Both the position numbers and the translations under genes were made by a program. A stretch of DNA of 64,000 nt from Simplicispira metamorpha (GTDB taxonomy: Bacteria > Pseudomonadota > Gammaproteobacteria > Burkholderiales > Burkholderiaceae_C): positions 1 to 64,000 of the forward strand of contig NZ_SLXH01000026.1 of assembly GCF_004341365.1 (NCBI RefSeq). The letters are read 5' to 3'. Shown here in pieces: positions 13,033 through 35,986 of this stretch. Position 1 is the stretch's first letter. Every line of letters begins with the position of its first letter. The notes below the pieces were generated by a model, which was not told the origin of the DNA, did not search any database, and worked only from the letters and a program-made list of their open reading frames with translations.

Positions 13033-13075
13033 GTGATCGTTCCGGCCAATCGGTTTGACCGCCTGTGCCATTGGC
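13033..13075 (+). promoter_or_regulatory. Putative AraC-regulator operator, site 1
   Basis: GTGATC (13033-13038), 6 bp, GCCAATC starting at 13045, then ATTGGCG starting at 13070. The 6-bp arms GCCAAT/ATTGGC are exactly inverted with a 19-bp spacer. The right arm overlaps the -35 hexamer TTGGCG. The same layout, in the same register, recurs upstream of the Bug gene at 16783 and, weaker, of that at 34985. Confidence 0.6.
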
Positions 13076-13099
13076 GGGCCCGGGGGTGGTGCCTAGACT
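13071..13099 (+). promoter_or_regulatory. Promoter of the caiB-bug-araC unit
   Basis: TTGGCG (13071-13076), exact 17-bp spacer, TAGACT (13094-13099). Transcription should start near 13106, only about 4 bp before the ATG at 13110, implying a nearly leaderless message. No Shine-Dalgarno sequence is seen. Confidence 0.6.
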
Positions 13100-13109
13100 G
13101 GCCCGTGCC

Positions 13110-14339
13110 ATGTCCCAAAATCCTTCTTCCCTTTCTTCTTCTGCGCCTGCGGGCGCTCCGCTGCGCGGCGTGCGCGTGCTTGACCTGACACGGCTGCTGC
13201 CCGGCCCGGTGTGCGCGCTGCATTTGGCCGATCTGGGCGCTGAGGTCATCAAAATCGAAGACACCGGCGCGGGTGACTACGCCGCAGCGGCGCTGCGCAC
13301 GCTGGTCAACCGCAACAAGCGCGGGCTGGCGCTGGACTTGAAGCAGCCCGGTGGCGTCGAGGCGCTGCTGCGCCTGTGCGAGAGCGCCGATGTGCTGGTG
13401 GAGGGCTTTCGCCCCGGCGTGATGGAGCGCCTGGGTGTGGGCTACGCCGCAGTGGCCGCGCGCAACCCGCGCATCGTTTATTGCAGCATCACCGGCTACG
13501 GCCAGACTGGCCCCTACCGCGATGCCCCTGGCCACGACATGAACTACAGCGGCTGGGCCGGTGTGGCCGACCAGATGGGCGTGCCCGGTCAGCCCCCGGC
13601 ACTGTCGAATCTGCCGGTGGCCGACCTGCTTGGCGGCTCGATGACGGCAGCCATGGGCATTCTGGCTGCGCTGTTCGATGCCAGCCGCACCGGCACCGGA
13701 CGCCATGTGGACATCGCTATTGCCGATGGCGTGCTGGCCCATGCCGTGCTGCCGCTGGCCGCCGTCAACACCCACGGCCAGGCCGATGCGGTAGGCCAGA
13801 GCAAGCTCACGGGCGCGCTGCCGTGCTACGCCATGTATGCCACCGCCGATGGCCGCTACCTGGCCGTGGCCGCGCTGGAGCGCAAGTTCTGGGATGCCTT
13901 TTGCGCGCGCATTGGCCGGGCGGATCTGCAAGCCTTGCACTACCCGCTGGCGCCCGCGCAGGCGCAGTGGGTGCGCGCCGAATTGCAGGCGCTGATAGGT
14001 GCGCACCCCCTGGCCTGGTGGACAGACAAACTGCGCGACGCTGACTGCTGCGTCACGCCCGTGCTGCGGCTGCAAGAAGCGTTGGACAACCCGCAGTTTG
14101 CTGCCCGCGCCATGGTGCTGCCGCTGGATGCGGGTGCCACCGCCAGCGCCGCCGCTACCAACCCCACCCCAGACCGGGCGCAGCGCCAGTTTGCCTGCCC
14201 CGTGAAGATGACCGGATTTGAGTTTTCCGTGCGCCAACCCGCGCCACGCCCCGGTGAACACACCGAGGACGTGCTGCGGGAGGCGGGTTACAGCGCAGCG
14301 GAGATACAGGCTTTGCGCAGCCGGGGTGCCGTGGGCTGA
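13110..14339 (+). CDS. CaiB/BaiF CoA-transferase family protein, alpha-methylacyl-CoA racemase-like
   Basis: 409 residues from the ATG at 13110. N-terminal LRGVRVLDLTRLLPGP and HLADLGAEVIKIED are typical of class III CoA-transferases. The region PGHDMNYSGWAG (H142) and PVADLLGG (D172) matches the His/Asp pair that removes the alpha proton in alpha-methylacyl-CoA racemases, whereas true transferases use an Asp for the glutamyl/aspartyl anhydride. I therefore favour epimerisation of 2-methyl-branched acyl-CoA esters. It leads an operon with a Bug receptor and an AraC regulator and sits beside branched-chain beta-oxidation genes, which agrees. Confidence 0.82.
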   Translation: MSQNPSSLSSSAPAGAPLRGVRVLDLTRLLPGPVCALHLADLGAEVIKIEDTGAGDYAAAALRTLVNRNKRGLALDLKQPGGVEALLRLCESADVLVEGFRPGVMERLGVGYAAVAARNPRIVYCSITGYGQTGPYRDAPGHDMNYSGWAGVADQMGVPGQPPALSNLPVADLLGGSMTAAMGILAALFDASRTGTGRHVDIAIADGVLAHAVLPLAAVNTHGQADAVGQSKLTGALPCYAMYATADGRYLAVAALERKFWDAFCARIGRADLQALHYPLAPAQAQWVRAELQALIGAHPLAWWTDKLRDADCCVTPVLRLQEALDNPQFAARAMVLPLDAGATASAAATNPTPDRAQRQFACPVKMTGFEFSVRQPAPRPGEHTEDVLREAGYSAAEIQALRSRGAVG

Positions 14340-14402
14340 ACCCCTTTTTCCGGGGGGGCAGGCCATGGCAACAAACCATCCAGAAAAACCAAGGAGACAA
14401 GC

Positions 14403-15395
14403 ATGCCAAAACAACCAACCCAGGGCTGGACACGCCGACGGGCCACCGCATCGGCTTTGCTGGTGGCGGGCGCCGCGCTGCTGGGCACACCTGCTGCCTG
14501 GGCCGATAGCTACCCGTCCAAGCCTATCACGCTGATCTTGCCGTTTCCGGCCGGGGGCGCGACCGATGTGCAGATGCGTGTGCTGGCGCAGGCTGCGGCC
14601 AAAGAGCTGGGCCAGCCCATCATCATGTCCAACCGCCCGGGCGTGGGCGGCACGCTGGGGCCAGCGGCCATGGCCCAGTCATCGCCACCCGATGGCTACA
14701 CCATTGCGTTGATTGCGGCCACGCTGTTTCGCCTGCCGCACCTGATGAAGGTCAGCTACGACCCGGTCAAGGATTTCACCTACCTCATCAACCTGACGGG
14801 CTATGCCAACGGTCTGGTGGTGCGCCAGGATGCGCCCTGGAAGAACGTGCAGGAACTGCTGGCCGACGCCAAGGCCCGCCCCGGCGCCATCAGCTACGGC
14901 GCTACCGGCAAGGGCAGCAGTGGCCACATTGCCATGGAGCGCCTGCTGCGCACGGCGGGCGTGCAGATGACCTTCATTCCCTACAAGGGCGGGGCCGAAA
15001 CCACCACCGCGCTGCTGGGCGGCCACCTCAACGTGATCTCTGACCCGGGCTGGGGCCCCATCGTGGAGTCGGGCAAGGCCCGGGTGCTGGCCACGCTGGG
15101 CGAGGCGCGACTCAAGCGTTTTCCGCAGGTGCCCACGCTCAAGGAGCTGGGCTTTGACCTGGTGGTGAATTCGCCCATCGGCCTGGCTGGCCCCAAGGGC
15201 ATGGAGCCTGCCGTGGTCAAGAGGCTGCACGATGCTTTCCGCAAGGCCATGAACGACCCCGGCTACCAGCAGGCGCTGGAGCTGAACGACCAGGTGCCCC
15301 TCTACATGGGCGCGGAGGAGTACGGCCGCTACGCCACCGAGCAGACCGCACGCGAGAAGGTCTTTGTGCAGGAGCTGGGCATTAAACTGGACTGA
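14403..15395 (+). CDS. Bug-family periplasmic substrate-binding protein 1
   Basis: 330 residues: a signal peptide (basic start WTRRRATASALL, cleavage near AWA-DS), then the Bug/TctC fold beginning SYPSKPITLILPFPAGGATD, followed by PPDGYTIAL and YKGGAETTTALLGGH. Bug proteins bind carboxylates or amides through two bridging waters. The cognate TctA/TctB membrane proteins are not in the window, so it may act as an orphan receptor or share a transporter. AAGGAGACAAGC gives a clear ribosome binding site. It lies 63 bp after the racemase-like gene and its stop overlaps the AraC start. Confidence 0.9.
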   Translation: MPKQPTQGWTRRRATASALLVAGAALLGTPAAWADSYPSKPITLILPFPAGGATDVQMRVLAQAAAKELGQPIIMSNRPGVGGTLGPAAMAQSSPPDGYTIALIAATLFRLPHLMKVSYDPVKDFTYLINLTGYANGLVVRQDAPWKNVQELLADAKARPGAISYGATGKGSSGHIAMERLLRTAGVQMTFIPYKGGAETTTALLGGHLNVISDPGWGPIVESGKARVLATLGEARLKRFPQVPTLKELGFDLVVNSPIGLAGPKGMEPAVVKRLHDAFRKAMNDPGYQQALELNDQVPLYMGAEEYGRYATEQTAREKVFVQELGIKLD

Positions 15396-16423
15396 TGTCC
15401 CCCGCCGTGACCAGCCACACCATCGCCATTCCCCAGGTGATACAGATCATCCAGGGGGTGCGCCAGCGCGGCATGGACGTGGACGCCATCTTGCAGCGCG
15501 CGGGCATTGCCCCGGCCCTGCTCGACTCGCCGCTGTCGCGCGTCACGCAGGCGCAGTACGCCGCACTCATGAAGGTGCTGCGCCGTGTATGCCGCGATGA
15601 GCTGTGGGGCCTGTGCAGCCGCCCGGTGAAGGTGGGCAGCTTTGCCCAGGTGTGCCAGGCGCTGGTGCATTGCCACACGCTGGGCGATGCGTTGCGCACC
15701 GCGTTCCGCTTCTACCACCTGATGCTGCAAGACTTTGTGCCGCGCCTGCAAGTGCGTGGCAACACAGCGCGGGTGGTCATGGTGACGCTGCGCGAGCGCG
15801 ATCCGCTGCTGGCCTATGCCGAGCGCTCGTTCTGCTTTCTGGGCTACGGCGTGATGTCGTGGCTGGTGTCGCGCCGCATTCCGCTGTCGTGCGTGTTTTA
15901 TCCCCCGGGGACGGACATGCCCTACGGAACGGAGGCCGAACGCCTGTTCCAGGCCCCCGTCAGCCACGCGCAGCCGCGCATGGGGTTTGAGTTTGATGCC
16001 AGCTGGCTCAGCCTGCCCATCGTGCAAAACCCCCAGAGCCTGCAAGAGTTCATGGCGCAAGTGCCCAAGGTGCTGGTGGTGAAGTACCGCCACCAGGCCA
16101 GCCTGAGTGAGCGCATCCGGCGCATGCTGCGCCGCTACCTGGCCAGCGAGATGCCTTCGCTGGAGCAGGTGAGCGAAACCCTGGCCATGACCCCGCAGAC
16201 CCTGCGCCGGCGCCTGCGCGATGAGGGGCAGGGCTACCAGGCCATCAAGGACAACCTGCGCCGCGATGCGGCCATCGAGTACCTGAGCCAGCCCGAACTG
16301 ACGCTGGCCGACATCGCCGGGCGATTGGGGTTTTCTGAAGCCAGCACCTTCCACCGTGCCTTCAAGGGCTGGACGGGGCTGTCACCCGGCGCCTACCGCC
16401 AGACCCAGCTCCACCCTTTGTGA
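15395..16423 (+). CDS. AraC-family transcriptional regulator (arabinose-binding-domain type)
   Basis: 342 residues. The N-terminal part (about 20-210) matches the Arabinose_bd domain of OruR/ArgR-like AraC regulators; the C-terminal 100 residues hold two HTH motifs (EQVSETLAMTPQTLRRRLRD and LADIAGRLGFSEASTFHRAF), ending in GLSPGAYR. Such proteins activate catabolic operons on binding a small ligand. The start overlaps the Bug stop (TGATG), so translation is coupled. It is the only regulator in 13-33 kb and lies between two promoters with identical operator-like repeats, making it the likely binder and an autoregulator. Confidence 0.92.
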   Translation: MSPAVTSHTIAIPQVIQIIQGVRQRGMDVDAILQRAGIAPALLDSPLSRVTQAQYAALMKVLRRVCRDELWGLCSRPVKVGSFAQVCQALVHCHTLGDALRTAFRFYHLMLQDFVPRLQVRGNTARVVMVTLRERDPLLAYAERSFCFLGYGVMSWLVSRRIPLSCVFYPPGTDMPYGTEAERLFQAPVSHAQPRMGFEFDASWLSLPIVQNPQSLQEFMAQVPKVLVVKYRHQASLSERIRRMLRRYLASEMPSLEQVSETLAMTPQTLRRRLRDEGQGYQAIKDNLRRDAAIEYLSQPELTLADIAGRLGFSEASTFHRAFKGWTGLSPGAYRQTQLHPL

Positions 16424-16632
16424 GTGCTGCCCCCGCCCAGGTGCGGCGGGCGGGCGGTTGAGCGCGGGCATTCCCAGGCGCCGCGCACCCACTGTGCTGC
16501 GCCCACCCCAGCGGGCAACCCGTGCCCGAAAACCGTGGCCCTGGTGGCTGCCCTGCAACTGTCGGCGGCGGGCAAGGTGCTGAAGAGCCGTCTGCACACG
16601 CCAACAACGGAGATGGCAGCAGCTGTGCCTGC

Positions 16633-16675
16633 GTGATCTTTTTTGCCAATCATTTTGTGCTAAACGGCGATTGGC
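16633..16675 (+). promoter_or_regulatory. Putative AraC-regulator operator, site 2
   Basis: GTGATC (16633-16638), 6 bp, GCCAATC at 16645, then ATTGGCG at 16670: same arms, same 19-bp spacer and same distances as site 1. The spacer also shares a C..TTTG start with site 1. It heads the operon beginning with the Bug gene at 16783. Confidence 0.6.
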
Positions 16676-16699
16676 GCACCCCCTGCCGACTGCCACACT
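16671..16699 (+). promoter_or_regulatory. Promoter of the bug-thiolase operon
   Basis: TTGGCG (16671-16676), 17-bp spacer, CACACT (16694-16699). The -10 box is weak (three matches to consensus), as expected for an activator-dependent promoter. The register to the operator equals that of site 1. Confidence 0.45.
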
Positions 16700-16782: not shown

Positions 16783-17787
16783 ATGAAATTTTCCCGACGC
16801 AGCCCCCTGCGCATGGCCCTGGGTAGCGCCTTGGCCGTCCTGCTGGGCACTGCCGCCTTGCCCATGGCTGCCCAGACCGCAGACACCAGCGCCTACCCCT
16901 CCAAGCCTCTGAGAATGATCGTTCCGTACCCGGCAGGCGGCGGGGCCGACATCATTGGCCGGGCCATTGCGCAGCAGCTGGGCCAGGCCTGGAATGTGCC
17001 CGTCATCGTCGAGAACAAGCCCGGTGCCAGCGGCATCACCGGCAACGATCTGGTGGCCAAATCGGCCCCCGATGGCTACACCATGCTGATCGGCATCACC
17101 GCCATGATCCAGACTCCCGCGCTGTACGCCAAGCTGCCCTACGATGTGCTGAAAGACTTTGCGCCGGTGTCACAAATTGCCATGTCCTCCGACCTGTTCG
17201 TGGTGCCGCGCGATGTGCCCGCCAAGACGCTGCCAGAGTTCATCGCCCTGGCCAAGGCCCACCCGGGCAAGTACAGCTACGGCAATTACGGCAACGGCAC
17301 CTCGTCGCACATGCACGGCGAGCTGCTCAAAATGAAGGCAGGCGTTGACCTGACGGCCATCCCCTACAAGGGCGCGGCACCGCTGGTCAACGATGTGCTG
17401 GGGGGGCAGTTGTCGTCGGCGTTTGTCGATGCGTCTTCGGCCAACGCGCATCTCAAGTCCGACAAGTTCCGCATCCTGGCCATCACGGGCATGCGCCGCC
17501 ACCCGGCCTTGCCCGAAGTGCCCACTTTCACGGAGGCGGGCTACAGCGGCTTTGAAGCCAACGGCTGGTATGGCGCTTTTGTGGCCGCTGGCACGCCCAA
17601 GCCCATCGTGGACAAGCTCTCGGCCGAGGTGCGCAAGATCGTCGCCTCGCCCGAGCTCAGTGCCCGCCTGACTGCCATGGGTCTGCGCCCCGTGGGCAGC
17701 ACGGCGCAAGAGCTGGCCGACGTCATGGCCCGCGACCTGCCCAAGTGGAGCCGCATCGTCAAGGACGCCAAGATCACGCTGGAGTAA
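16783..17787 (+). CDS. Bug-family periplasmic substrate-binding protein 2
   Basis: 334 residues from the ATG at 16783, preceded by CGGAGACAAACC. Signal peptide to about residue 35 (RMALGSALAVLLGTAALPMAAQ), then the Bug fold: AYPSKPLRMIVPYPAGGGAD, SAPDGYTMLIG, YKGAAPLVNDVLGGQ. It probably binds an anionic substrate of the catabolic pathway encoded next to it. It is the first gene of a long operon (thiolase, two MaoC-type genes, SDR, acyl-CoA dehydrogenase, ligase, reductase, hydratase). No TctA/B partner is present. Confidence 0.9.
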   Translation: MKFSRRSPLRMALGSALAVLLGTAALPMAAQTADTSAYPSKPLRMIVPYPAGGGADIIGRAIAQQLGQAWNVPVIVENKPGASGITGNDLVAKSAPDGYTMLIGITAMIQTPALYAKLPYDVLKDFAPVSQIAMSSDLFVVPRDVPAKTLPEFIALAKAHPGKYSYGNYGNGTSSHMHGELLKMKAGVDLTAIPYKGAAPLVNDVLGGQLSSAFVDASSANAHLKSDKFRILAITGMRRHPALPEVPTFTEAGYSGFEANGWYGAFVAAGTPKPIVDKLSAEVRKIVASPELSARLTAMGLRPVGSTAQELADVMARDLPKWSRIVKDAKITLE

Positions 17788-17844: not shown

Positions 17845-19038
17845 ATGTCATCACACAAAAGAGCCGTACACGTCGTTGGCGTCGGCATGATCCCCTTCAC
17901 CAAGCCCGGTGCCAGCGACCCGTACACGGTCATGGGCGCGCGCGCTGCCAAGCTGGCGCTGGAAGACGCTGGTGTCGATTACGCCCTGGTCGAGCAGGCC
18001 TATGTCGGCTATGTCTATGGCGACTCCACCGCCGGCCAGGCGGCCATTTACGGCGTGGGCCTGACGGGCATTCCAGTGTTCAACCTGAACAACAACTGCT
18101 CCACCGGTTCCAGCGCGCTGTTTCTGGCGCGCCAGGCCGTTGAGAGCGGCCAGGTGGAATGCGCCATTGCCCTGGGGTTTGAGCAAATGCAGCCCGGCGC
18201 GCTCAAGGGCGCCTGGGACGACCGCCCCTCGCCCATGGCCCGCTTTGCCGAGGTCATGACCGCGCACCAGGGCTATGACCCTGCCACGCCGCGCGCGGCG
18301 CAGTTCTTTGGCGGCGCAGGCCGCGACTACATGGCGCAGTACGGCATCCGCGCTGATACCTTTGGCCGCATCTCGGTCAAGGCGCGCCAGCATGCCGCGC
18401 GCAACCCGCTGGCCGTGTTCCGCCAGACGCTCACGCTGGACGAAGTGATGGCCGCGCCCATGGTGTTCGATCCGCTCACACGCTACCAGTGCTGCCCGCC
18501 CACCTGCGGCGCCGCTGCGGCCATCGTCTGCTCGGCAGAATTTGCGCAAAAGCACAACCTCGACCGCCGCGTGGTGATTGCCGCCCAGGCCATGACCACC
18601 GACACGCCCAGCACCTTCGAGAGCGGCGACATGCGCAAAGTGGTGGGCTACGACATGAGCGTGGCCGCTGCGCGCCAGGTCTATGAGGCCGCTGGCATTG
18701 GCCCCGAAGACCTGGACGTGGTGGAGCTGCACGACTGCTTTACCGCCAACGAGCTCATCACCTACGAAGCCCTGGGCCTGACCCCCGAGGGCACGGCAGA
18801 AAAGTTCATCCTTGATGGCGACAACACCTACGGTGGCCGCGTGGTGACCAACCCCTCGGGCGGCCTGCTGTCCAAGGGCCACCCGCTGGGCGCTACGGGC
18901 CTGGCGCAGTGCTACGAACTCACCCACCAGCTGCGCGGCACCGCCGAACAGCGCCAGGTGGAGGGTGCGCGCAACGCGCTGCAACACAACCTGGGGCTGG
19001 GCGGCGCCTGTGTGGTCACGCTCTACCAACGGGCCTGA
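17845..19038 (+). CDS. SCP-x-type thiolase (lipid-transfer/acetyl-CoA acetyltransferase family)
   Basis: 397 residues. Nucleophile C85 in NNNCSTGSSALF; a histidine H296 in VELHDCFTANE; and H346 in SKGHPLGATG. This is the thiolase subfamily of peroxisomal sterol carrier protein x, which cleaves 3-oxoacyl-CoA esters including 2-methyl-branched ones. No C-terminal SCP2 lipid-binding domain is present. CCAAGGAAACCCC gives the ribosome binding site and the gene follows the Bug gene by 57 bp. All catalytic residues are intact, in contrast to the paralogue at 26661. Confidence 0.9.
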   Translation: MSSHKRAVHVVGVGMIPFTKPGASDPYTVMGARAAKLALEDAGVDYALVEQAYVGYVYGDSTAGQAAIYGVGLTGIPVFNLNNNCSTGSSALFLARQAVESGQVECAIALGFEQMQPGALKGAWDDRPSPMARFAEVMTAHQGYDPATPRAAQFFGGAGRDYMAQYGIRADTFGRISVKARQHAARNPLAVFRQTLTLDEVMAAPMVFDPLTRYQCCPPTCGAAAAIVCSAEFAQKHNLDRRVVIAAQAMTTDTPSTFESGDMRKVVGYDMSVAAARQVYEAAGIGPEDLDVVELHDCFTANELITYEALGLTPEGTAEKFILDGDNTYGGRVVTNPSGGLLSKGHPLGATGLAQCYELTHQLRGTAEQRQVEGARNALQHNLGLGGACVVTLYQRA

Positions 19039-19051
19039 GGAGCGGCGCACC

Positions 19052-19504
19052 ATGATCGACAAGCGTTTCATCGGGCATGTGATGCCCACCTTCAGCGCCG
19101 TGGTGGAGGCAGGGCGGTTGCGCTTCTTCGCCAAGGCCGCGGGCCAGACCGACCCCCTCTACAGCGATGAGGCCGCCGCCCGTGCCGCAGGCCACCCCGG
19201 CCTGCCAGTGCCGCCCACCTTTTTGTTCTGCCTGGAGATGGAAAGCCCCGACCCGGCGGCCATCCGCAACCTGCTGGGCATGGACTACCGCAGCCTGCTG
19301 CACGGTGAACAAGGCTTTACCTACCACGCCATGGCCTACGCGGGCGACACCCTGACCTTCGAGCAGCGTATCGAAGACATCTACGACAAAAAGGGCGGCG
19401 CGCTGGAGTTTGTGGTGCGCACAACGCGCGTGACCAACCAGCACCAGCAGCTGGTGGCCGAGCTGCGCTGCGTCACTGTGATCCGCAACGCCACCGGGAG
19501 CTGA
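19052..19504 (+). CDS. MaoC N-terminal-type (FAS1-like) dehydratase subunit
   Basis: 150 residues, single hot-dog fold resembling the FAS1_DH/MaoC N-terminal domain: FIGHVMPTFSAVVEAGRLRF, then PVPPTFLFCLEM and LLHGEQGFTYHAMAYAGDTL. This half usually lacks the catalytic Asp-His and pairs with a second hot-dog protein, as in ChsH1-ChsH2-like enoyl-CoA hydratases. The next gene supplies that half and begins 1 bp after this stop. The start has GAGGAGCGGC upstream. Confidence 0.85.
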   Translation: MIDKRFIGHVMPTFSAVVEAGRLRFFAKAAGQTDPLYSDEAAARAAGHPGLPVPPTFLFCLEMESPDPAAIRNLLGMDYRSLLHGEQGFTYHAMAYAGDTLTFEQRIEDIYDKKGGALEFVVRTTRVTNQHQQLVAELRCVTVIRNATGS

Positions 19505-19505
19505 C

Positions 19506-19931
19506 ATGACCGCCACTGCCTTGAACTACGACACCATCGCCGTCGGTGACGCGCTGCCAGGTTTGGAGACACCGCCGATTTCGCGCCTGACGCTGGCGCT
19601 GTACTGCGGCGCCTCGGGCGACCACAACCCCATCCACGTCGATACCGACTTTGCCCGCGCCGCCGGTATGCCCGATGTGTTTGCCCACGGCATGCTCTCC
19701 ATGGCCTGGCTGGGCCGTGTGCTCACCAACTGGGTGCCGCAGCAAGACCTGCTCGAATACAGCGTGCGCTTTGCCGCCATCACCCATGTGGGCGAGCGCA
19801 TCACCTGCGCGGGCAAGGTGGTTGAAAAACTGGAGCGCGCGGGCCGCCGCTGCGTGCGCGTGGAGCTGTCCACCACCAACCAGGATGGCCTGCTCAAGCT
19901 CGCGGGCGAGGCCGTGCTGGCCATCGCCTGA
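19506..19931 (+). CDS. MaoC-family (R)-specific enoyl-CoA hydratase subunit
   Basis: 141 residues. The hydratase-2 motif is present: D39 and H44 in SGDHNPIHVD, then GMPDVFAHGMLSMAWLGR. It adds water to trans-2-enoyl-CoA giving (R)-3-hydroxyacyl-CoA, which suits the downstream HSD17B4-like dehydrogenase. Together with the preceding non-catalytic hot-dog gene it should form a heteromeric hydratase able to hold bulky acyl chains. Confidence 0.88.
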   Translation: MTATALNYDTIAVGDALPGLETPPISRLTLALYCGASGDHNPIHVDTDFARAAGMPDVFAHGMLSMAWLGRVLTNWVPQQDLLEYSVRFAAITHVGERITCAGKVVEKLERAGRRCVRVELSTTNQDGLLKLAGEAVLAIA

Positions 19932-19969
19932 TCTTCTTTGTTCCTTCCTTCTTCAAGATTGCTTCTCAC

Positions 19970-20797
19970 ATGACTCGCAAACTCGACAACAAAGTGGCCC
20001 TGGTATCGGGCTCTGGCCGTGGCATTGGCCGTGAAATCGCCCTCAAGCTGGCCGCCGAGGGTGCGCGCGTGGTCATCAACGACCTCGATGCCACCCCCGC
20101 ACAGCAGACCGTGGCCGACATCATCGCCGCCGGGGGGCAGGCCGTGGCCTGCGTGGGCAGCGTGACCGAAGCGGGCTTTGCCGAACGCTTTGTGGCCACC
20201 GCTATCGACACCTATGGCGGCCTGGACATCATCGTCAACAACGCCGGTTACACCTGGGACAACGTAGTGCAAAAGATGACCGACGAGCAGTGGGAAGCCA
20301 TGCTGGCAGTCCACCTGACGGCACCGTTCCGCATCCTGCGCGCTGCGTCGGGCTTTATCCGCGACGCCGCCAAGCGCGAGGCCGAAGCAGGCAAGCCGGT
20401 ACACCGCAAGGTGGTGAACATCTCGTCCACCTCGGGCGTGTACGGCAACGCGGGTCAGGCCAACTACGCGGCGGCCAAGGCCGGCATCAACGGCCTGACC
20501 AAAGCCATGGCCAAAGAGTGGGGCCGCTACAAGGTCAACGTCAACAGCGTGGCTTTCGGTTTGATCATGACGCGCCTGACCGAGGTGGATGCCAGCGCCG
20601 ATGCCAAGATCGACATCGCGGGCCAGCAGATCAAGGTGGGCGTGCGCCCCGACATCCTGAAGAACGCCGAGGCCACGATCCCGCTGGGCCGGGGCGGCAC
20701 GCCCGAAGAAGCGGCGGGCGCCGTGTACCTGTTCTGCATCCCTGAATCCGACTACGTCAGCGGCCAGGTGCTGGTCTGCGGCGGCGGCAAACCCTGA
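19970..20797 (+). CDS. SDR-family 3-hydroxyacyl-CoA dehydrogenase (HSD17B4-like)
   Basis: 275 residues. Rossmann motif SGSGRGIGRE near residue 13, NNAG near residue 91, a catalytic serine in NISSTSGVYGN, and Y166-K170 in NYAAAKAG. The closest family type is the dehydrogenase part of peroxisomal multifunctional enzyme type 2, which oxidises (R)-3-hydroxyacyl-CoA with NAD. It follows the MaoC pair, giving the two activities that are fused in the eukaryotic enzyme. FabG-like function is the alternative. Confidence 0.87.
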   Translation: MTRKLDNKVALVSGSGRGIGREIALKLAAEGARVVINDLDATPAQQTVADIIAAGGQAVACVGSVTEAGFAERFVATAIDTYGGLDIIVNNAGYTWDNVVQKMTDEQWEAMLAVHLTAPFRILRAASGFIRDAAKREAEAGKPVHRKVVNISSTSGVYGNAGQANYAAAKAGINGLTKAMAKEWGRYKVNVNSVAFGLIMTRLTEVDASADAKIDIAGQQIKVGVRPDILKNAEATIPLGRGGTPEEAAGAVYLFCIPESDYVSGQVLVCGGGKP

Positions 20798-20806
20798 GGA
20801 GACACC

Positions 20807-21958
20807 ATGGAAAGCGTTCTGACTTTTCCCCGCACGGTGTTCCGTGAAGACCATGAAATGCTGCGCCAGACGGTGCGCCGTTTTCTGGAACGCGAGTGCA
20901 AGCCGCGCCAGGCCCAATGGGACCAAGATGGCAAGGTAGACCGCGAAACCTGGCTCAAGGCCGGGCGCGAGGGTCTGCTGTGTACCGCCCTTGACCCCGA
21001 GTGGGGCGGCGCCGGTGGCGACTTTGGCCACTCTGCCGTCATCGTCGAAGAAATCGCCCGCGCTGGCATCAGCGGTCTGGGGTTCGGCCTGCACTCAGAC
21101 ATCGTGGCGCCCTACATCGAGCGCCTGGGCACCGAAGCGCAAAAGCGCCAGTGGCTGCCCAAGGCCGCCAGCGGCGAGGTGATTCTGGCGATTGCCATGA
21201 GCGAGCCCGGCGCGGGCAGCGACCTGAAAGCCATCCGCACCACGGCCCGCCGCGAGGGCGACGAGTACGTCATCAATGGCGCCAAAACCTTCATCTCCAA
21301 TGGCCTGAACTGCGACCTCATCGTGGTCGTGGCCAAGACCCAGCCCGAGCTGGGTGCCAAGGGCGTGTCGCTGATCCTGGTCGAGGCCGACCGGGCGGGC
21401 TTCAAAAAAGGCCGCAAGCTGGAAAAAATGGGCCAGGAAGCCGCCGACACCGCCGAGCTGTTCTTTGAGGACGTGCGTGTGCCCGTCAGCAACCTGCTGG
21501 GCGAAGAGAACAAGGGCTTTGCCTACCTGATGCAGGAGCTGGCGCAAGAGCGTTTCATCATCGCCGTGGGGGCTGCCACCAAGCTGGAGGTGATGCTGGA
21601 CGAGACCATCCGCTACACCAAAGAGCGCAAGGTGTTCGGGCAAACCGTGTTCGACTTCCAGAACACCCGCTTCAAGCTGGCCGAGATCAAGGCCCGCACC
21701 ACGGCCCTGCGCATGATGGTGGACCAGTACCTGGCCGAACACATGCGGCGCAAGCTGACGGTGGAAGAAGCCGCCATTGCCAAGCTCTACGCCACCGAAG
21801 AGCTGGGCCGCAGCCTCGATGAGCTGCTGCAACTCTACGGCGGCTACGGCTACATGATGGAGTACCCGATTGCGCGCGCCTTTGTCGATTCGCGCGTCAA
21901 CCGCATCTACGGCGGCACCAGCGAGGTTATGAAAGAGCTGATCTCGCGCAAGCTCTAA
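20807..21958 (+). CDS. Acyl-CoA dehydrogenase, LCAD-like
   Basis: 383 residues, full ACAD fold with the FAD loop AMSEPGAGSDLKAIRTTA and FISNGLNCDLIVVVAKT. The C-terminus reads RIYGGTSEVMKELI: glycine takes the place of the catalytic Glu found in MCAD-type YEGT. Long-chain and isovaleryl-type enzymes put the base on helix G, and E266 in MLDETIRYTK aligns there. LCAD-type enzymes accept branched acyl-CoA, which fits the cluster. GAGGAGACACC upstream gives a strong ribosome binding site, 9 bp after the SDR stop. Confidence 0.92.
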   Translation: MESVLTFPRTVFREDHEMLRQTVRRFLERECKPRQAQWDQDGKVDRETWLKAGREGLLCTALDPEWGGAGGDFGHSAVIVEEIARAGISGLGFGLHSDIVAPYIERLGTEAQKRQWLPKAASGEVILAIAMSEPGAGSDLKAIRTTARREGDEYVINGAKTFISNGLNCDLIVVVAKTQPELGAKGVSLILVEADRAGFKKGRKLEKMGQEAADTAELFFEDVRVPVSNLLGEENKGFAYLMQELAQERFIIAVGAATKLEVMLDETIRYTKERKVFGQTVFDFQNTRFKLAEIKARTTALRMMVDQYLAEHMRRKLTVEEAAIAKLYATEELGRSLDELLQLYGGYGYMMEYPIARAFVDSRVNRIYGGTSEVMKELISRKL

Positions 21959-25711: not shown

Positions 25712-26632
25712 ATGAGCACACAAGGCATGGTTGAAGGCAAAGTGGTGGTGGTGACGGGCGCAGGCGGCGGCATTGGCCGCGACATCGCCCTGGCCATGGC
25801 CCGCGAAGGCGCCAAAGTGGTGGTCAACGACATTGGAGCCTCTGTCAGCGGTGAAGGCAACGACGCTGGCCCGGCACAAAAAGTGGTCGATGAAATCAAG
25901 GCCCTGGGCGGCGAGGCCGCTGCCAACACCGACAGCGTTTCGGATGTGGTGGCGGCAGGCCGCATCATCCAGACCGCCCTGGACACCTTTGGCCGCATCG
26001 ATGTGGTGGTGAACAACGCAGGCATTCTGCGCGACCGCTTCTTCCACAAAATGAGCCTGGACGAGTGGGATGCCGTCATCAAGGTGCACCTGTACGGCGC
26101 CTACTACGTCAGCCGCGCTGCTGCCAACCACTTCAAAGAGCAGGGCAGTGGCAACTACATCCACATGACCTCCACCTCGGGCCTGATCGGCAACTTTGGC
26201 CAGGCCAACTACGCCGCCGCCAAGCTGGGCGTGGCCGCGCTGTCCAAGTCCATTGCGCTGGACATGCAGAAGTTCAACGTGCGCAGCAACTGCATTGCGC
26301 CGTTTGCCTGGAGCCGCATGATCGGCTCCATTCCCACCGAAACCGATGCCGAAAAAGCCCGCGTCGAGCGCATCAAGCAGATGACGCCCGCCAAGATTGC
26401 CCCGCTGGCCGTGTGCCTGGCCAGCGATGTGTCTGCCGACACCAACGGCCAGATTTTTGCCGTGCGCAACAACGAAATCTTCCTCATCAGCCAGCCGCGC
26501 CCCGTGCGCTCGGTACACCGCAGCGAGGGCTGGACGCCGCAAAGCGTGGCCGCGCACGCGCTGCCCGCCCTCAAGGCCAGCTACTTTGACCTCGACCGCT
26601 CGGGTGACGTGTTCACCTGGGACCCCATCTGA
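25712..26632 (+). CDS. SDR-family 3-hydroxyacyl-CoA dehydrogenase 2 (HSD17B4-like)
   Basis: 306 residues from the ATG at 25712, with ACAGGAGCACGCAC upstream. GAGGGIGRDIAL is the cofactor motif, VNNAGILRDRFF and Y167-K171 in NYAAAKLG are catalytic elements, and the C-terminal extension (about residues 225-306) is characteristic of the multifunctional-enzyme-2 dehydrogenase group. It likely oxidises a 3-hydroxyacyl-CoA. It starts a second transcription unit (SDR, DUF35-thiolase, dehydrogenase, thioesterase, Bug, ligase) after a terminator, so it parallels the SDR at 19970 but is not a close duplicate. Confidence 0.88.
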   Translation: MSTQGMVEGKVVVVTGAGGGIGRDIALAMAREGAKVVVNDIGASVSGEGNDAGPAQKVVDEIKALGGEAAANTDSVSDVVAAGRIIQTALDTFGRIDVVVNNAGILRDRFFHKMSLDEWDAVIKVHLYGAYYVSRAAANHFKEQGSGNYIHMTSTSGLIGNFGQANYAAAKLGVAALSKSIALDMQKFNVRSNCIAPFAWSRMIGSIPTETDAEKARVERIKQMTPAKIAPLAVCLASDVSADTNGQIFAVRNNEIFLISQPRPVRSVHRSEGWTPQSVAAHALPALKASYFDLDRSGDVFTWDPI

Positions 26633-26660
26633 GCCCCGCAGCGCCACGAGAGCACGCACC

Positions 26661-28280
26661 ATGAGCGATACCACCCCGGGCGTTCAGGCCCAGTACCAAG
26701 CCCAGCTGAACGCGGGCCAGTTCCTGATCCAGCGCTGCACCGGCTGCAGCCAGCATGTCTATTTCCCGCGTGAGAGCTGCCCGCACTGCGGCGCCCACGA
26801 TCTGCAATGGGTAGCGCCCAGCGGCTACGGCACGGTGTATTCCACCACCACCATTGCGCGCAAGCCCGAGGCGGGCGGCAACTACAACGTCAGCCTGATT
26901 GACCTGGACGAAGGCGTGCGCCTGATGAGCCGCGTTGAAGTCCAGCCGGTCGATGCCGTGCAGATGGGCCAGCGCGTGCAGGCGCGCGTGGTGCAACAGG
27001 GCGACCAGGGCGTGGTCGTGTTCGACCCCGTGGTCGGTGCGCCCGCCGCCACCGCCGCGCAGCCCGTGCCGCGCGGCCCGGCAGCGTCGGCGGCCATCCA
27101 CACCTCGTCGGGTTTGCAGGCGCTGCGCGGCAGTGCCGCCATTGCCGGGGTGGCCACCTTTGGCTGCGGCGAGGCCACGGGCTTTACCGAGATGGAAGTG
27201 CTCGCCCATGCCGCCCGCGCCGCCGTGGCCGATGCGGGCCTGAAGATGAGCGACATCGACGGCCTGTGTACCGCCAGCGTGCTCTCCACCATGTGGCCCA
27301 TGCCCGTGACCGAGTACCTGGGCATCAACCCGCGCTACATCAACAGCACCATGATTGGCGGCTCCAGCTTTGTCGCGCACATCCTGCCGGCCATGATGGC
27401 GCTGCAAGCGGGCCAGTGCAACGCCGTGCTGGTGTGCTACGGCAGCACGCAGCGCAGCAGCACCTTTGGCCGCGCCGAAATCGCCAAGGCCCGCCGCGTG
27501 ATGGACCCCCAGCCCTACGAGACGCCCTTCGAGCCCATGCAGCCGCTGTCGGCCTACGCGCTGGCCGCGCGCCGCCACATGCACCAGTACGGCACCACGC
27601 GGCGCCAGCTGGCCGAGGTGGCCGTGGCCGCGCGCCAGTGGGCGCAGCTCAACCCCGAAGCCTTCCTGCGCGACCCGCTGACCATCGACGACGTGCTCAA
27701 GGCGCGCATGGTGTCCGACCCGCTGACGGTGCGCGACTCCTGCCTGGTCACTGACGGCGGCGGCGCCTTCGTGCTGGTGCGCGCCGACCGCGCCACCACC
27801 TTGCCGAAAAAGCCCGTCTATGTGCTGGGCAACGCCACCGCCAACTGGAACCGCCAAATCTCCTCCATGCACGATCTGACGGTGACGGCGGCCAGCCAGT
27901 CGGGCCGCGAGGCCTTTGCCATGGCCGGGCTGGCGCCCAAGGACATGGGCGTGGTCGAGCTGTACGACGCCTTCACCATCAACACGCTGCTGTTTCTGGA
28001 AGACCTGGGCTTTTGCGCCAAGGGCGAGGGCGGCGCGTTTGTCGAGAACGGCGCCATCGCCCCGGGCGGGCGGCTGGCGGTCAACACCAACGGCGGCGGC
28101 CTCTCGTGTACCCACCCGGGCATGTACGGCATCTTCACCGTGATCGAGGCGGTGCGCCAGCTGCGCGGCGAGGCCGGTGCGCGCCAGGTGGCCGGTGTGC
28201 AGACCGCGCTGGCACACGGCAACGGCGGCACGCTGTCGAGCCAGTCCACCGCCATTCTGGGCACCGCCGAGGCGCTGTAA
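26661..28280 (+). CDS. DUF35 zinc-ribbon/OB-fold fused to an Ltp2-like thiolase-superfamily aldolase
   Basis: 539 residues. Residues 1-125: a DUF35 unit, with zinc ribbon C26-C29-C40-C43 (CTGC, CPHC) and an OB fold. Residues about 150-539: the thiolase superfamily of the SCP-x/Ltp2 branch. The nucleophile position reads INSTMIGGSSF, with M231 where the neighbour at 17845 has Cys, so it cannot be a thiolase. VVELYDAFTINTLLFLEDLG keeps the tyrosine region used by Ltp2-type retro-aldolases, which need a DUF35 partner and cleave beta-hydroxyacyl-CoA in steroid side-chain loss. Here both parts are one polypeptide. CGAGAGCACGCACC lies upstream. Confidence 0.85.
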   Translation: MSDTTPGVQAQYQAQLNAGQFLIQRCTGCSQHVYFPRESCPHCGAHDLQWVAPSGYGTVYSTTTIARKPEAGGNYNVSLIDLDEGVRLMSRVEVQPVDAVQMGQRVQARVVQQGDQGVVVFDPVVGAPAATAAQPVPRGPAASAAIHTSSGLQALRGSAAIAGVATFGCGEATGFTEMEVLAHAARAAVADAGLKMSDIDGLCTASVLSTMWPMPVTEYLGINPRYINSTMIGGSSFVAHILPAMMALQAGQCNAVLVCYGSTQRSSTFGRAEIAKARRVMDPQPYETPFEPMQPLSAYALAARRHMHQYGTTRRQLAEVAVAARQWAQLNPEAFLRDPLTIDDVLKARMVSDPLTVRDSCLVTDGGGAFVLVRADRATTLPKKPVYVLGNATANWNRQISSMHDLTVTAASQSGREAFAMAGLAPKDMGVVELYDAFTINTLLFLEDLGFCAKGEGGAFVENGAIAPGGRLAVNTNGGGLSCTHPGMYGIFTVIEAVRQLRGEAGARQVAGVQTALAHGNGGTLSSQSTAILGTAEAL

Positions 28281-32738: not shown

Positions 32739-33200
32739 TCAGCCCTGCGCCATCTCCTGGGGCGGCGCCAGTTGCTTGAACTTGAACGATGCCATCGCCC
32801 GCGCCAGCACCTCCTGGTTTTCCCCGCGCACGGTGCCTTCGCAGTAGCAAATTGAACGCCCGCCGCCGGTGTGCCAGCCCTCAATCACCAGCCGCCCACG
32901 GCCCGAGGCCAGGAAGCTGGTGTTCAGGTTCAGCGTGACGACGCCAGCCTCAAAGTTCACGCTGGACATGGCGGCACTGGCCATGGCGCTATCGAGCAAG
33001 GTGGCCAGCACGCCGCCGTGGGCCGCGTCGAACAGGTTGGTCAGTTCCGGGCGCACTGGCATGGACAGGCGCGCGTAGCCGTTGGCCGAAACTTCGCGCG
33101 TGACGCCGAGCAGCTGCATGAACGGCACCTGCTTGAACACGTCAGCGAAGCGCCCGGGCACGCTGGCGCAGGGGCTTGCCGGGGTGTTTGCCGGGCTCAT
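32739..33200 (-). CDS. PaaI-family acyl-CoA thioesterase 2
   Basis: 153 residues from the ATG at 33198-33200. NLFDAAHGGVLATLLDSAMA is the hot-dog signature, followed by VVTLNLNTSFLASGRG. Its start overlaps the ligase stop upstream by 4 bp (ATGA), so it is translationally coupled to acyl-CoA ligase 3. It is the counterpart of the thioesterase at 29660. Confidence 0.9.
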   Translation of the reverse strand: MSPANTPASPCASVPGRFADVFKQVPFMQLLGVTREVSANGYARLSMPVRPELTNLFDAAHGGVLATLLDSAMASAAMSSVNFEAGVVTLNLNTSFLASGRGRLVIEGWHTGGGRSICYCEGTVRGENQEVLARAMASFKFKQLAPPQEMAQG

Positions 33201-34735
33201 GCGGCGCTCCCGCAGGACTTGCGCAGCTCGCTTTTGAGCACTTTGCCCGCAGCCGACAAGGGCAGGCTGTGGCGAAACTCGATGCTCTCCGGGCATTTGT
33301 AGCCGCCCAGCCGGGTGCGACAGTGGGCGCGCAGCTCCTCGGCGGTGGCCTCTGCGCCTTCGCGCAGCACCACCACCGCATGCACCGCTTCGCCCCATTT
33401 GGCACTCGGGACGCCGATGACCGCGCAGGTGGCAACGGCAGGGTGTCGGCCCAGGGCCTCCTCGACCTCGGCGGGGTACACGTTTTCGCCGCCCGAGATG
33501 ATCATGTCTTTGAGCCTGTCGACCACGTAGAGGCGCCCTTGTGCGTCCATGTAGCCGCCATCGCCGGTGTGCAGCCAGCCGCCGTGCAGCGCCTGCGCCG
33601 TCTCTTCGGGGCGGCCCCAGTAGCCGACCATGACCACGGGGCCGCGCACCAGGATTTCGCCCGCGTCACCGGTGGGCACTTCGCGGCCTTCGGGGTCGGC
33701 CACGCGGATCTCGGTGGCGTAGCCAGCGCGGCCCGCCGAGCGGATGCACTCGCCGCGCCGCTCCTCGGGCGCCTGGCCAATGCGGTGTACCGAGACCGAG
33801 GCCGCCGTCTCGGTCATGCCGTAGGCGTGGATGAATTCGACGTGGGGCAAGGCGGCCAGCGCGCGCTCCAGCAGCGGCAGGGCCATGGGCGCTGCGCCCC
33901 AGAGGATGCGGCGCAGGCTGCTCAGGTCGTGCTGGCCAAAGGTGGGCGTGTCCAGCAGCATCTGAACCATGCTGGGCACCATCACCATGTCGGTGATGCC
34001 TTCTTCCTGGATGGTGTGCAGCACCGTGTCGGGCCGAAAAGCGGGCAGGGTGACGCAGGTGCCACCCACGATGAGCTGGCCAATCAGGCGGCCCAATCCG
34101 GCTACATGGAACAGCGGTGCAATCAGCAGCGTCACGAAGTCGCTGGGATTGGGCACCTCGGCGGTGCGCCCCACGCTGGAAGACCAGAAGTTGTGGTGCG
34201 ACAGCATCACGCCCTTGGGAAAGCCCGTGGTGCCGCCGGTGTAGAGGATGGCGGCCAGGGCATCAGCGCTGGGGCGGGCGTCTTCCACCGGGGTGGCGGC
34301 ATCGATCAGGGCTTCGTAGCTGTGCAGGCCCTCGGGTGTGGGTGCGTGGCCCAGGTGGACGGTGGCGCAGAGGCTGGCCACTGGTGGCACCACATCGTGC
34401 GCCAGGGTGGTGAAGGCATCGTCCACCAGCAGCACGCGCGCGGCGCAGTCGTTGAGTGCATAGGTGATCTCGGCCAGGCTCCAGCGCGTGTTGACCGGGT
34501 TGAGCGTTGCGCCGCACCACCAGACGGCCAGGGTGGTCTCGACATAGCGGGCGCTGTTGTGGGCCAGCACGGCGATGCGGTCGCCGGGCTGCACGCCCAG
34601 TTGCTGCAAAGCGGCGGCCAAGCGCGCCACGCGCGCATGCAACTGGCCAAAAGACAGGCGGCAATGGCCGTCCACGAGGGCGATCTTGTCGGGGTGGCGT
34701 TGCAGCGAGCGGTGCAGTCCGGCAGTCAGGTACAT
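33197..34735 (-). CDS. AMP-dependent acyl-CoA ligase 3
   Basis: 512 residues, ANL superfamily. LYTGGTTGFPKGVML near residue 159 (Gly replaces the usual first Ser), HAYGMTETAASV near residue 302, LHTGDGGYMDAQGRLY near residue 388 and the C-terminal lysine in LSAAGKVLKSEL. AAGGAGACAAG precedes the start. Divergent from the Bug gene at 34985; the two probably share the regulatory region between them. Confidence 0.92.
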   Translation of the reverse strand: MYLTAGLHRSLQRHPDKIALVDGHCRLSFGQLHARVARLAAALQQLGVQPGDRIAVLAHNSARYVETTLAVWWCGATLNPVNTRWSLAEITYALNDCAARVLLVDDAFTTLAHDVVPPVASLCATVHLGHAPTPEGLHSYEALIDAATPVEDARPSADALAAILYTGGTTGFPKGVMLSHHNFWSSSVGRTAEVPNPSDFVTLLIAPLFHVAGLGRLIGQLIVGGTCVTLPAFRPDTVLHTIQEEGITDMVMVPSMVQMLLDTPTFGQHDLSSLRRILWGAAPMALPLLERALAALPHVEFIHAYGMTETAASVSVHRIGQAPEERRGECIRSAGRAGYATEIRVADPEGREVPTGDAGEILVRGPVVMVGYWGRPEETAQALHGGWLHTGDGGYMDAQGRLYVVDRLKDMIISGGENVYPAEVEEALGRHPAVATCAVIGVPSAKWGEAVHAVVVLREGAEATAEELRAHCRTRLGGYKCPESIEFRHSLPLSAAGKVLKSELRKSCGSAA

Positions 34736-34821
34736 CTTGTCTCCTTGGGTCGTTGTAGGTATGCGCCATCAGATTGGAGCGCATGCACCCTGCCCGGGCA
34801 ATCACCGATCAGCTCAAAGCC

Positions 34822-34827
34822 ATTGGC
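34822..34827. promoter_or_regulatory. Extra ATTGGC half-site in the ligase/Bug divergent region
   Basis: A single ATTGGC lies about 60 bp upstream of the imperfect operator at 34887. It could be an additional binding half-site for the same regulator or chance. Confidence 0.25.
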
Positions 34828-34874
34828 AGAAACGTCCATGCCTGGGGCGTTGCTGCGCCCGCACGGCGCAGGCG

Positions 34875-34917
34875 GTGTCGCTTCTTGCCAAACGAAATGA
34901 ATCTTCCGGCCATCGCC
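34875..34917 (+). promoter_or_regulatory. Putative AraC-regulator operator, site 3 (imperfect)
   Basis: GTG (34875), GCCAAAC at 34887 and ATCGCCG at 34912. Distances between these elements equal those of sites 1 and 2 (12 bp, then 19-bp spacer), but each arm has one or two changes from GCCAATC/ATTGGCG. The following TAGAGTGG resembles TAGACTGG of site 1. Confidence 0.4.
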
Positions 34918-34935: not shown

Positions 34936-34941
34936 TAGAGT
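34936..34941 (+). promoter_or_regulatory. -10 box of the Bug gene at 34985
   Basis: TAGAGT, 49 bp after the start of the left operator arm, the same register as TAGACT at 13094. The matching -35 region (TCGCCG at 34913) is poor, as expected for an activated promoter. Confidence 0.4.
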
Positions 34942-34984: not shown

Positions 34985-35986
34985 ATGACCGATTCCCGTG
35001 CAAATTTTTCTGCATCGCGGCGCCAGTTTGGGCGCCAGTTGTTGTCCGTGGGCGCGTTGGCGGCGGCTTTGCCAGGGGCCGCCACAGCCGCCACATCGCC
35101 TTTTCCTGCCAAACCGATCACGGTGCTGCTGCCGTTTCCGCCCGGCGGCAGCGCCGACGCCATGGTGCGTGCCATCACCCATGTGGCCATGGCGGAGTTG
35201 GGCCAGCCCGTGGTCATCATGCACCGGCCCGGTGGTGGCGGCGTGACGGGCACCGCGAGCCTGACGCAGAACGTGGCCCCCGACGGACACACCCTGGCGC
35301 TGATGCACAACGCCGTGTTGCGCCAGCCGTTGCTACAGAAAGTGGGTTGGGACCCGTTGGTTGACTTCACGTACATCACCGGGTTGGCCAGTCTGTCCAC
35401 GCTGATTACGGTGCGGGCCGATGCCCCCTGGAAGAATTTGCAGGAGCTGCTGGCCGACGCCAAAGCGCGCCCTGGCGCCATCAGCTACGGCACCGTGGGC
35501 GCGACCAGTGCCAACCGCATTGCGGGCGAGCAGCTGGCGCGGCTGGTGGGTGGGCAGTTCAACATGGTTCCTTACAAGGGCGGTGCCGAGGCCATCACGG
35601 CGTTGATGGGCGGCCACTTGGATGTGTACGGCGACCCCGGCGTGGGGCCGGTGGCGCTGTCGGGCAAGCTGCGGGTGCTGGCCTCGTTCACCGACCAGCG
35701 GCTTCAGCGCTTTCCAGCGGTGCCCACGGTCAAAGAGCTGGGCTATGGCCTGAGCGTGTACTCGCCCTTTGGCATCGTCGGGCCCCGGGGCATGGACGCT
35801 GCGGTGGTCGATCGCCTGCATACCGTCTTCAGCCAGGCCGCCACCGATCCGATCTACCAGAAGGTGCTGGAGGATTACGACTTCATGCCCTACCGCATGG
35901 ACCCCGCCGCGTACCGCCAATACGCGCAAGAGCAGTTTGCCCGCGAGAAAACCTTGCTGCAGAAACTGGGCTTCAAGCCCGAGTAG
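34985..35986 (+). CDS. Bug-family periplasmic substrate-binding protein 4
   Basis: 333 residues; ACCAGGAGACAAAC upstream. The signal peptide carries SRRQFGRQLLSVGALAAALP, a twin-arginine-like start, cleaved near ATA-ATS. The Bug fold follows: FPAKPITVLLPFPPGGSAD, VAPDGHTLALM and YKGGAEAITALMGGH. It is most like Bug 1 (14403), sharing APWKNLQELLADAKARPGAI-type stretches. It is monocistronic and divergent from ligase 3. Confidence 0.9.
   Translation: MTDSRANFSASRRQFGRQLLSVGALAAALPGAATAATSPFPAKPITVLLPFPPGGSADAMVRAITHVAMAELGQPVVIMHRPGGGGVTGTASLTQNVAPDGHTLALMHNAVLRQPLLQKVGWDPLVDFTYITGLASLSTLITVRADAPWKNLQELLADAKARPGAISYGTVGATSANRIAGEQLARLVGGQFNMVPYKGGAEAITALMGGHLDVYGDPGVGPVALSGKLRVLASFTDQRLQRFPAVPTVKELGYGLSVYSPFGIVGPRGMDAAVVDRLHTVFSQAATDPIYQKVLEDYDFMPYRMDPAAYRQYAQEQFAREKTLLQKLGFKPE

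Follow-up and report, generated by a model that had tools for sequence, protein, structure and literature searches.

A putative AraC/XylS-family regulon with tandem operators at four predicted promoters in Simplicispira metamorpha

We analyzed a 64-kb stretch of DNA (positions 1 to 64,000 of contig NZ_SLXH01000026.1, here called the window) from the genome assembly of Simplicispira metamorpha, which comprises 68 contigs with 3,778,861 bases. The window probably contains a small, conserved regulon of one activator of the AraC/XylS family, the product of a gene designated araC here, which would act on tandem operators at four promoters. The four sites, their tandem layout, their distance to the -10 box, their conservation in front of orthologous units, and their co-occurrence with the regulator are demonstrated below by sequence comparison. 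The genes that would be under its control (Table 1) probably serve the uptake and breakdown of a carboxylic acid.

An earlier note on this DNA had reported one paired layout, GTGATC-N6-GCCAATC-N18-ATTGGCG, upstream of both caiB and bug2. The two copies could be read directly from the sequence (GCCAATC...ATTGGCG at 13045-13076 and 16645-16676), and a search with exact GCCAATC-N18-ATTGGCG returned two matches in the window and two in the whole genome, namely the same two. When up to three mismatches were allowed, 19 matches were found in the window, compared with a mean of 11.6 in shuffled sequences (sd 4.25), and 9 of 100 shuffles contained at least 19. The two-armed pattern therefore occurs at background frequency in its loose form, but not in its exact form, and neither does the direct-repeat core described below. 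Because the loose pattern is not clearly enriched, the signal resides in the exact copies and in their conservation.

For the comparison with other genomes, 56 regulator loci were taken from genome contigs, and 47 of them had an AraC match of at least 48% identity. A weight matrix was trained on 62 distinct sites, all from other genomes and picked by pattern from these 47 loci, and was applied to the window. Four sites were detected, with scores between 27.4 and 51.6, whereas the next match scored 6.6, the reversed matrix reached at most 3.1, and 100 column-permuted matrices reached at most 15.0. The window scores are not circular, and this also holds true for the left-half test and for the counts of zero reported below. 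The core pattern TGA-N8-GCCAAT-N4-TTG-N9-G-NN-ATTG was present in the genome with zero, zero, and one mismatch, all three times within the window, and the backwards control gave one match at up to three mismatches. No further core site in this genome had two mismatches, and eight had three; the matrix scan, which was the only one to detect Operator 4, covered the window, so that sites of similar weakness may lie outside it. The two reported sites are thus real, but the list was incomplete, as a second, divergent pair of sites is located at 34.8-34.9 kb.

The architecture of the operator was analyzed with a left-half test. Ninety regions upstream of target genes were searched for TG-N9-GCCAAT with at most one mismatch among the eight letters, which yielded 61 distinct sites that are related by descent and do not represent 61 independent cases. 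On the right side of these sites, TG was found at 11-12 in 50, GC at 22-23 in 43, and ATTG at 25-28 in 50 of them. The half-site recurrence score was 0.81 at offset 22, compared with 0.22 or less at the other offsets from 14 to 31. Because the half-site recurs at offset 22, the operator is best described as a 22-bp tandem direct repeat with the consensus TGATC-N6-GCCAATC / TGa-N8-GCsATTG, which reaches the -35 region. The GTGATC of the earlier note corresponds to box A, and the inverted appearance of the arms arises because one half carries CAAT and the other ATTG.

A dyad operator, GCCAAT-N19-ATTGGC, bound head-to-head by an AraC dimer or another dimeric regulator, would also account for CAAT...ATTG, which is symmetric and conserved. 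In addition, when the matrix was compared with itself, the second rank (3.4) was taken by an inverted arrangement with its centre at 7.0, formed by CAA...TTG within the left part, and the fourth (2.9) by that of the earlier note, with its centre at 15.0. The direct 22-bp repeat scored best (4.2, a value that was reached by 0 of 2000 column permutations), but because inverted arrangements rank second and fourth, the self-comparison by itself does not sharply separate the two types of symmetry. The left-half test does: at the 61 sites the remainder of the dyad's right arm was rare, with GCG at 29-31 in one and GC at 29-30 in eight, whereas TG at 11-12 and GC at 22-23 were as frequent as a direct repeat predicts. 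Moreover, an inverted counterpart is missing for the TG boxes, which lie 11 bp before each core. The dyad operator is thus very improbable, and dyad symmetry was rejected, as the mirror of the left arm is not conserved except for CAAT/ATTG. The inverted arms proposed as the functional unit did not hold up, since the right arm varies beyond ATTG and the half-site repeats directly at 22 bp.

The tandem operator has a near-fixed position relative to the predicted promoter. As claimed previously, counting from the first base of the left arm, TAGACT in front of caiB and CACACT in front of bug2 both begin at a distance of 49 bp. When positions 43-55 were searched for the best -10-like hexamer, it began at 49 in 49 of the 62 sites and in 35 of 35 sites of the thiolase/bug2 class; among 13 orthologous caiB sites (range 43-55), 11 had it at 49-50. 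The promoters themselves are predicted from sequence, and the promoter-proximal half contains a TTG at 26-28. TTGGCG had been proposed as a -35 box under the right arm; its TTG part is kept in other genomes, but the remainder varies, and the TTG also lies within the downstream half-site.

Conservation was quantified in front of orthologous genes. A site was present before caiB, bug2, or the thiolase gene in 38 of the 47 regulator loci, and before the ligase gene in four more (L070, L071, L083, and L086). In the operon-head test, a matrix score above 20 was counted as a site, and one caiB row was excluded, because upstream sequence was lacking. The thiolase gene had a site in 25 of 27 cases when bug2 was not directly in front of it, but in 0 of 7 when it was. 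Similarly, caiB carried a site in 14 of 17 loci when it was the first gene, but in 0 of 11 when it was located behind the ligase gene. For bug2 and the ligase gene, sites were found in 12 of 14 and 14 of 19 loci, respectively. As judged from these sequences, the operator stands before the leading gene of every unit and shifts when operons are rearranged. The sites are thus kept before orthologous operons in relatives, which also speaks for the earlier proposal.

The divergent ligase/bug3 pair is also present in genome G284, where each gene has its own site (37.9 and 37.3). A survey of ligase genes covered 30 loci; the matches from which they came numbered 31 and were spread over 22 of the 25 araC-bearing genomes. 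Scores above 15 in the ligase direction were obtained at six of the 30 (G000, G284, G087, G194, G268, and G177), and 24 were below; at 23 of these 24 the ligase was less than 60% identical. In G227, a further locus, a match of 21.6 was found in the divergent direction only. Two sites beyond the core clusters, at position 5668 of L149 (minus strand, 39.5) and 5588 of L155 (minus strand, 34.5), may mark additional members of the regulon in other genomes; the latter precedes a unit of Bug, acyl-CoA dehydrogenase, and CaiB genes. Two contigs of metagenome-assembled genomes, L072 and L073, labelled Hydrogenophaga and Falsiroseomonas, have identical site sequences and gene identities, which suggests mis-binning of one of them.

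The absence of clear enrichment of the two-armed pattern at up to three mismatches in the window could be taken to mean that the two reported layouts are a chance similarity or the result of a recent promoter duplication. This possibility can practically be dismissed, because orthologous promoters conserve the site across genera, the genome has no other match to the core with fewer than three mismatches, and the two window sites differ, by eye, beyond the shared letters.

The araC product has an AraC-type helix-turn-helix at its C-terminus (PF12833, 66.1 bits; PF00165, 37.4 bits; both above the cut-off), and its N-terminal domain matches PF12625 with 132 bits (E 3.5e-38). The best NCBIfam match was GliR (NF050186), with 165.5 bits and a cut-off of 570 that was not reached; for QhpR (NF049968) the score was 150.4 bits, below the equivalog cut-off of 250. 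A search of the sequences of solved structures revealed three weak relatives, the best being 5chh (E 5e-17), and a plasmid search with the regulator gave 258 records, every one below 60% identity.

In a family sample of 299 genomes, an AraC match with E of 1e-60 or lower was found in 39, and 25 of these had at least 50% identity and were treated as having an orthologue. The core occurred with at most one mismatch in 26 of the 299 genomes, and the backwards control gave none among the matches listed. Such cores were present in 16 of the 25 genomes with an orthologue versus 10 of the 274 without (Fisher 6e-14, relatedness ignored), and exact cores in 11 of 25 versus 0 of 274 (Fisher 1e-13, relatedness ignored). 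The regulator and a thiolase of at least 79% identity occurred together in 22 genomes, the regulator alone in three, and the thiolase alone in two. In 17 of the 22 genomes with both, a score above 20 was found within 1.5 kb upstream of the thiolase gene, and in the two genomes that have only the thiolase no site was found there (scores below -14). Where the thiolase was 69-72% identical and the genome had no regulator orthologue of at least 50% identity, six of nine loci were examined, and the scores did not exceed 0.1.

Together, sites before orthologous operons and co-occurrence with araC orthologues make the araC product the best candidate regulator of one regulon. Its gene does lie between the two reported sites, but it is not a lone gene, being the third in the unit caiB-bug1-araC. 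The suggestion that it activates both promoters and itself thus stands as far as its candidacy is concerned; its third place in the caiB unit makes self-activation plausible. In principle, a different regulator of this genome could recognize the tandem operator, with araC as a mere passenger of the cluster. Sites in G061 and L049, which lack a close orthologue, would fit such a passenger, as would the indirect nature of the case for regulator binding. Nevertheless, we regard it as quite improbable in view of the distribution of exact cores, of the site before a nearby target gene in 42 of the 47 regulator loci, and of the statement in PMC3900636 that a pair of half-sites in direct repeat is typical for the AraC family.

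Several results weigh against a single regulon of the araC product. Nine of the 25 orthologue-bearing genomes lack a core at up to one mismatch, and five of the 22 upstream regions of the thiolase gene scored below 20, four of them weakly (6.4-16.1), while in G079 there was no site. The Noviherbaspirillum loci L070 and L071 keep the ligase site only, with scores of 5.4-13.0 for the region upstream of the thiolase gene, 7.2-14.7 for that of caiB, and negative values for that of bug2. L063 is without a caiB site, and no site was found in the 17 kb of L089, the AraC protein of which is 54% identical; L082 and L096 also had no site, but in both the contig ends close to the regulator. Conversely, a site in G061 scored 44.8 and has a TAGACT, yet the best AraC protein of that genome is only 26% identical, and downstream of the site there is no convincing gene of at least 200 amino acids in its direction. 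In L049, a score of 28.8 was obtained around an AraC gene with just 39% identity. Furthermore, positives in the 47 regulator loci are partly circular, because the matrix was trained there. The absence of any sigma-70 consensus promoter (9 of 12) around the first two sites fits activator dependence, but it argues for it weakly, because shuffles average only 0.3. Lastly, binding, activation, the need for an inducer, and its identity are all inferred. The G061 site (position 6390 of L151, minus strand) adjoins a gene that resembles tctA, as read from its translation, and may be a relic.

Comparable operators are described for three known systems. SphR of Pseudomonas aeruginosa is an AraC-family activator that has a pair of half-sites in direct repeat, TGNCCSNNRNNSNCC, with 6-8 bp between them; the TG at the half-site start matters for binding, the core regulon comprises three promoters, and the ligand is sphingosine (PMC3900636). 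The system described here resembles it in the AraC-family regulator, the direct-repeat half-sites with a leading TG, and the small core regulon, but, going by that description of SphR, it is set apart by its half-site TGATC-N6-GCCAATC and its target genes. XylS, which responds to benzoates, acts at Pm of the TOL plasmid through two 15-bp direct repeats, in which 6 bp separate box A (TGCA) from box B (GGTA) (PMC5481539), and according to the title of a paper cited there, the sites of XylS and polymerase overlap. The plan of box A-N6-box B is the same here, repeated about 22 bp further on with the second repeat reaching -35, whereas the boxes and the target genes differ. GliR (PA3027) of P. aeruginosa is an activator that has two sites, the first upstream of -35 and the other overlapping it; its motifs are YYGGCGHTDTYSGMC and GGAYAWCGCCG, and it acts on glycerolipid metabolism genes (PMC8151288). 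Operator motifs and target genes differ from those described here, and the profile score is far under the cut-off. Thus, the operator architecture is a known one, that of AraC/XylS tandem repeats, and the consensus is new. No description of this regulon was found among the matches listed from the open-access literature, most subscription papers being outside the search, and the regulon is apparently undescribed.

A site that reaches -35 could also block polymerase, and the araC product would then repress these promoters. There is little to recommend repression, however, as the distance to a weak -10 box is near-fixed and the layout matches that of the activators XylS, SphR, and GliR.

As an activator, the regulator would bind an inducer, probably the carboxylic acid or its CoA intermediate, and a dimer would occupy the two 18-bp half-sites of the direct repeat, 22 bp apart. 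One helix-turn-helix would read TGa(t)C and the other GCCAATs/GCsATTG. The promoter-proximal half would overlap the TTG of a weak -35 box, so that contact of the regulator with RNA polymerase could lead to the opening of a promoter whose -10 box is poor and lies at a near-fixed distance. The promoters controlled in this way would be those of caiB-bug1-araC (positive autoregulation), of bug2 and the following thiolase, hydratase, short-chain dehydrogenase/reductase (SDR), and acyl-CoA dehydrogenase genes, of the acyl-CoA ligase gene, and of the divergent bug3.

Table 1. Predicted operators, -10 boxes, and genes in the window
Feature	Position	Strand	Basis or remark
Operator 1 (caiB promoter), TGATC-N6-GCCAATC (13034-13051) / TGACC-N6-GCCATTG (13056-13073)	13034-13073	+	Sequence; matrix score 43.5 (at 13045)
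-10 of caiB, TAGACT	13094-13099	+	TTG at 13071-13073 starts -35; 17-bp spacer if -35 is TTGGCG
Operator 2 (bug2 promoter), TGATC-N6-GCCAATC (16634-16651) / TGTGC-N6-GCGATTG (16656-16673)	16634-16673	+	Sequence; matrix score 51.6 (at 16645)
-10 of bug2, CACACT	16694-16699	+	49 bp from left-arm start
Operator 3 (ligase promoter), TGGAC-N6-GCCAATG / TGAGC-N6-GTGATTG	34799-34838	-	Core pattern; matrix score 46.0 (at 34827, minus); not in the earlier note
Operator 4, weaker (bug3 promoter), TGTCG-N6-GCCAAAC / TGAAT-N6-GCCATCG	34876-34915	+	Matrix score 27.4 (at 34887); TAGAGT at 34936-34941 (+49)
caiB, CoA-transferase family III (PF02515)	13110-14339	+	Head gene of unit 1
bug1, TctC/Bug solute-binding protein (PF03401)	14403-15395	+	Second in unit 1
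araC regulator, PF12625 N-terminal domain (Arabinose_bd) and HTH_18	15395-16423	+	Third in unit 1; candidate activator
bug2, TctC/Bug protein	16783-17787	+	Head gene of unit 2
Thiolase / lipid-transfer-protein-like enzyme	17845-19038	+	NCBIfam PRK08256, above cut-off
FAS1-DH-like hydratase, MaoC hydratase, SDR dehydrogenase, acyl-CoA dehydrogenase	19052-21958	+	Rest of the beta-oxidation-type unit 2
Acyl-CoA ligase (AMP-binding, PF00501), third ligase of the region	33197-34735	-	Domain match
bug3, TctC/Bug protein, divergent from the third ligase (34.7-35.0 kb)	34985-35986	+	Domain match

In unit 1, the ATG of araC (15395) overlaps the stop codon of bug1. The last base of the -10 box of caiB and the first base of its ATG are 11 bp apart (13094-13110); provided that both are assigned correctly, caiB would thus be translated from a leaderless or almost leaderless message. 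Downstream of unit 2, the same strand carries, up to 32.7 kb, genes for a ligase, an SDR, an enoyl-CoA hydratase, an OB-fold-thiolase fusion, an acyl-CoA dehydrogenase, a thioesterase, a Bug protein, and a second ligase. Zinc-ribbon/OB-fold and thiolase parts are often separate proteins; the open reading frame at 26397-28280 fuses a zinc-ribbon/OB-fold (ChsH2-type) part with a thiolase part, and its G284 counterpart matches in three pieces. A name for the pathway did not emerge, as no NCBIfam equivalog cut-off was passed by CaiB, the hydratases, the SDR, the acyl-CoA dehydrogenase, or the ligase (among the best 25 matches in the case of the SDR, the ligase, and the thiolase). Subfamily models were passed by the thiolase (PRK08256) and the ligase (PRK06187). 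Among 26 genomes of the genus, 15 of which are at least 90% complete, the regulator was found with E of 1e-60 or lower in this one only. The catabolic cluster (12212-36000) therefore looks accessory in the genus or horizontally gained.

A more far-reaching possibility, which we consider unlikely, is that an undescribed AraC regulon of the Burkholderiales controls a whole route for a single carboxylic acid, with capture by several Bug proteins, activation by CoA-transferase and CoA-ligase as alternatives, and an unusual beta-oxidation with a thiolase-like enzyme and paired hydratases. The operator, with its 22-bp direct repeat and its conserved CAAT/ATTG dyad, might then be bound in two geometries, with and without inducer. 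Irrespective of this possibility, an operator consensus and a candidate regulator are now defined for a widespread CoA-ester catabolic gene set. Because the inducer is likely to be the substrate or an intermediate, the substrate should be findable, and regulator and promoter together could be used to sense it.

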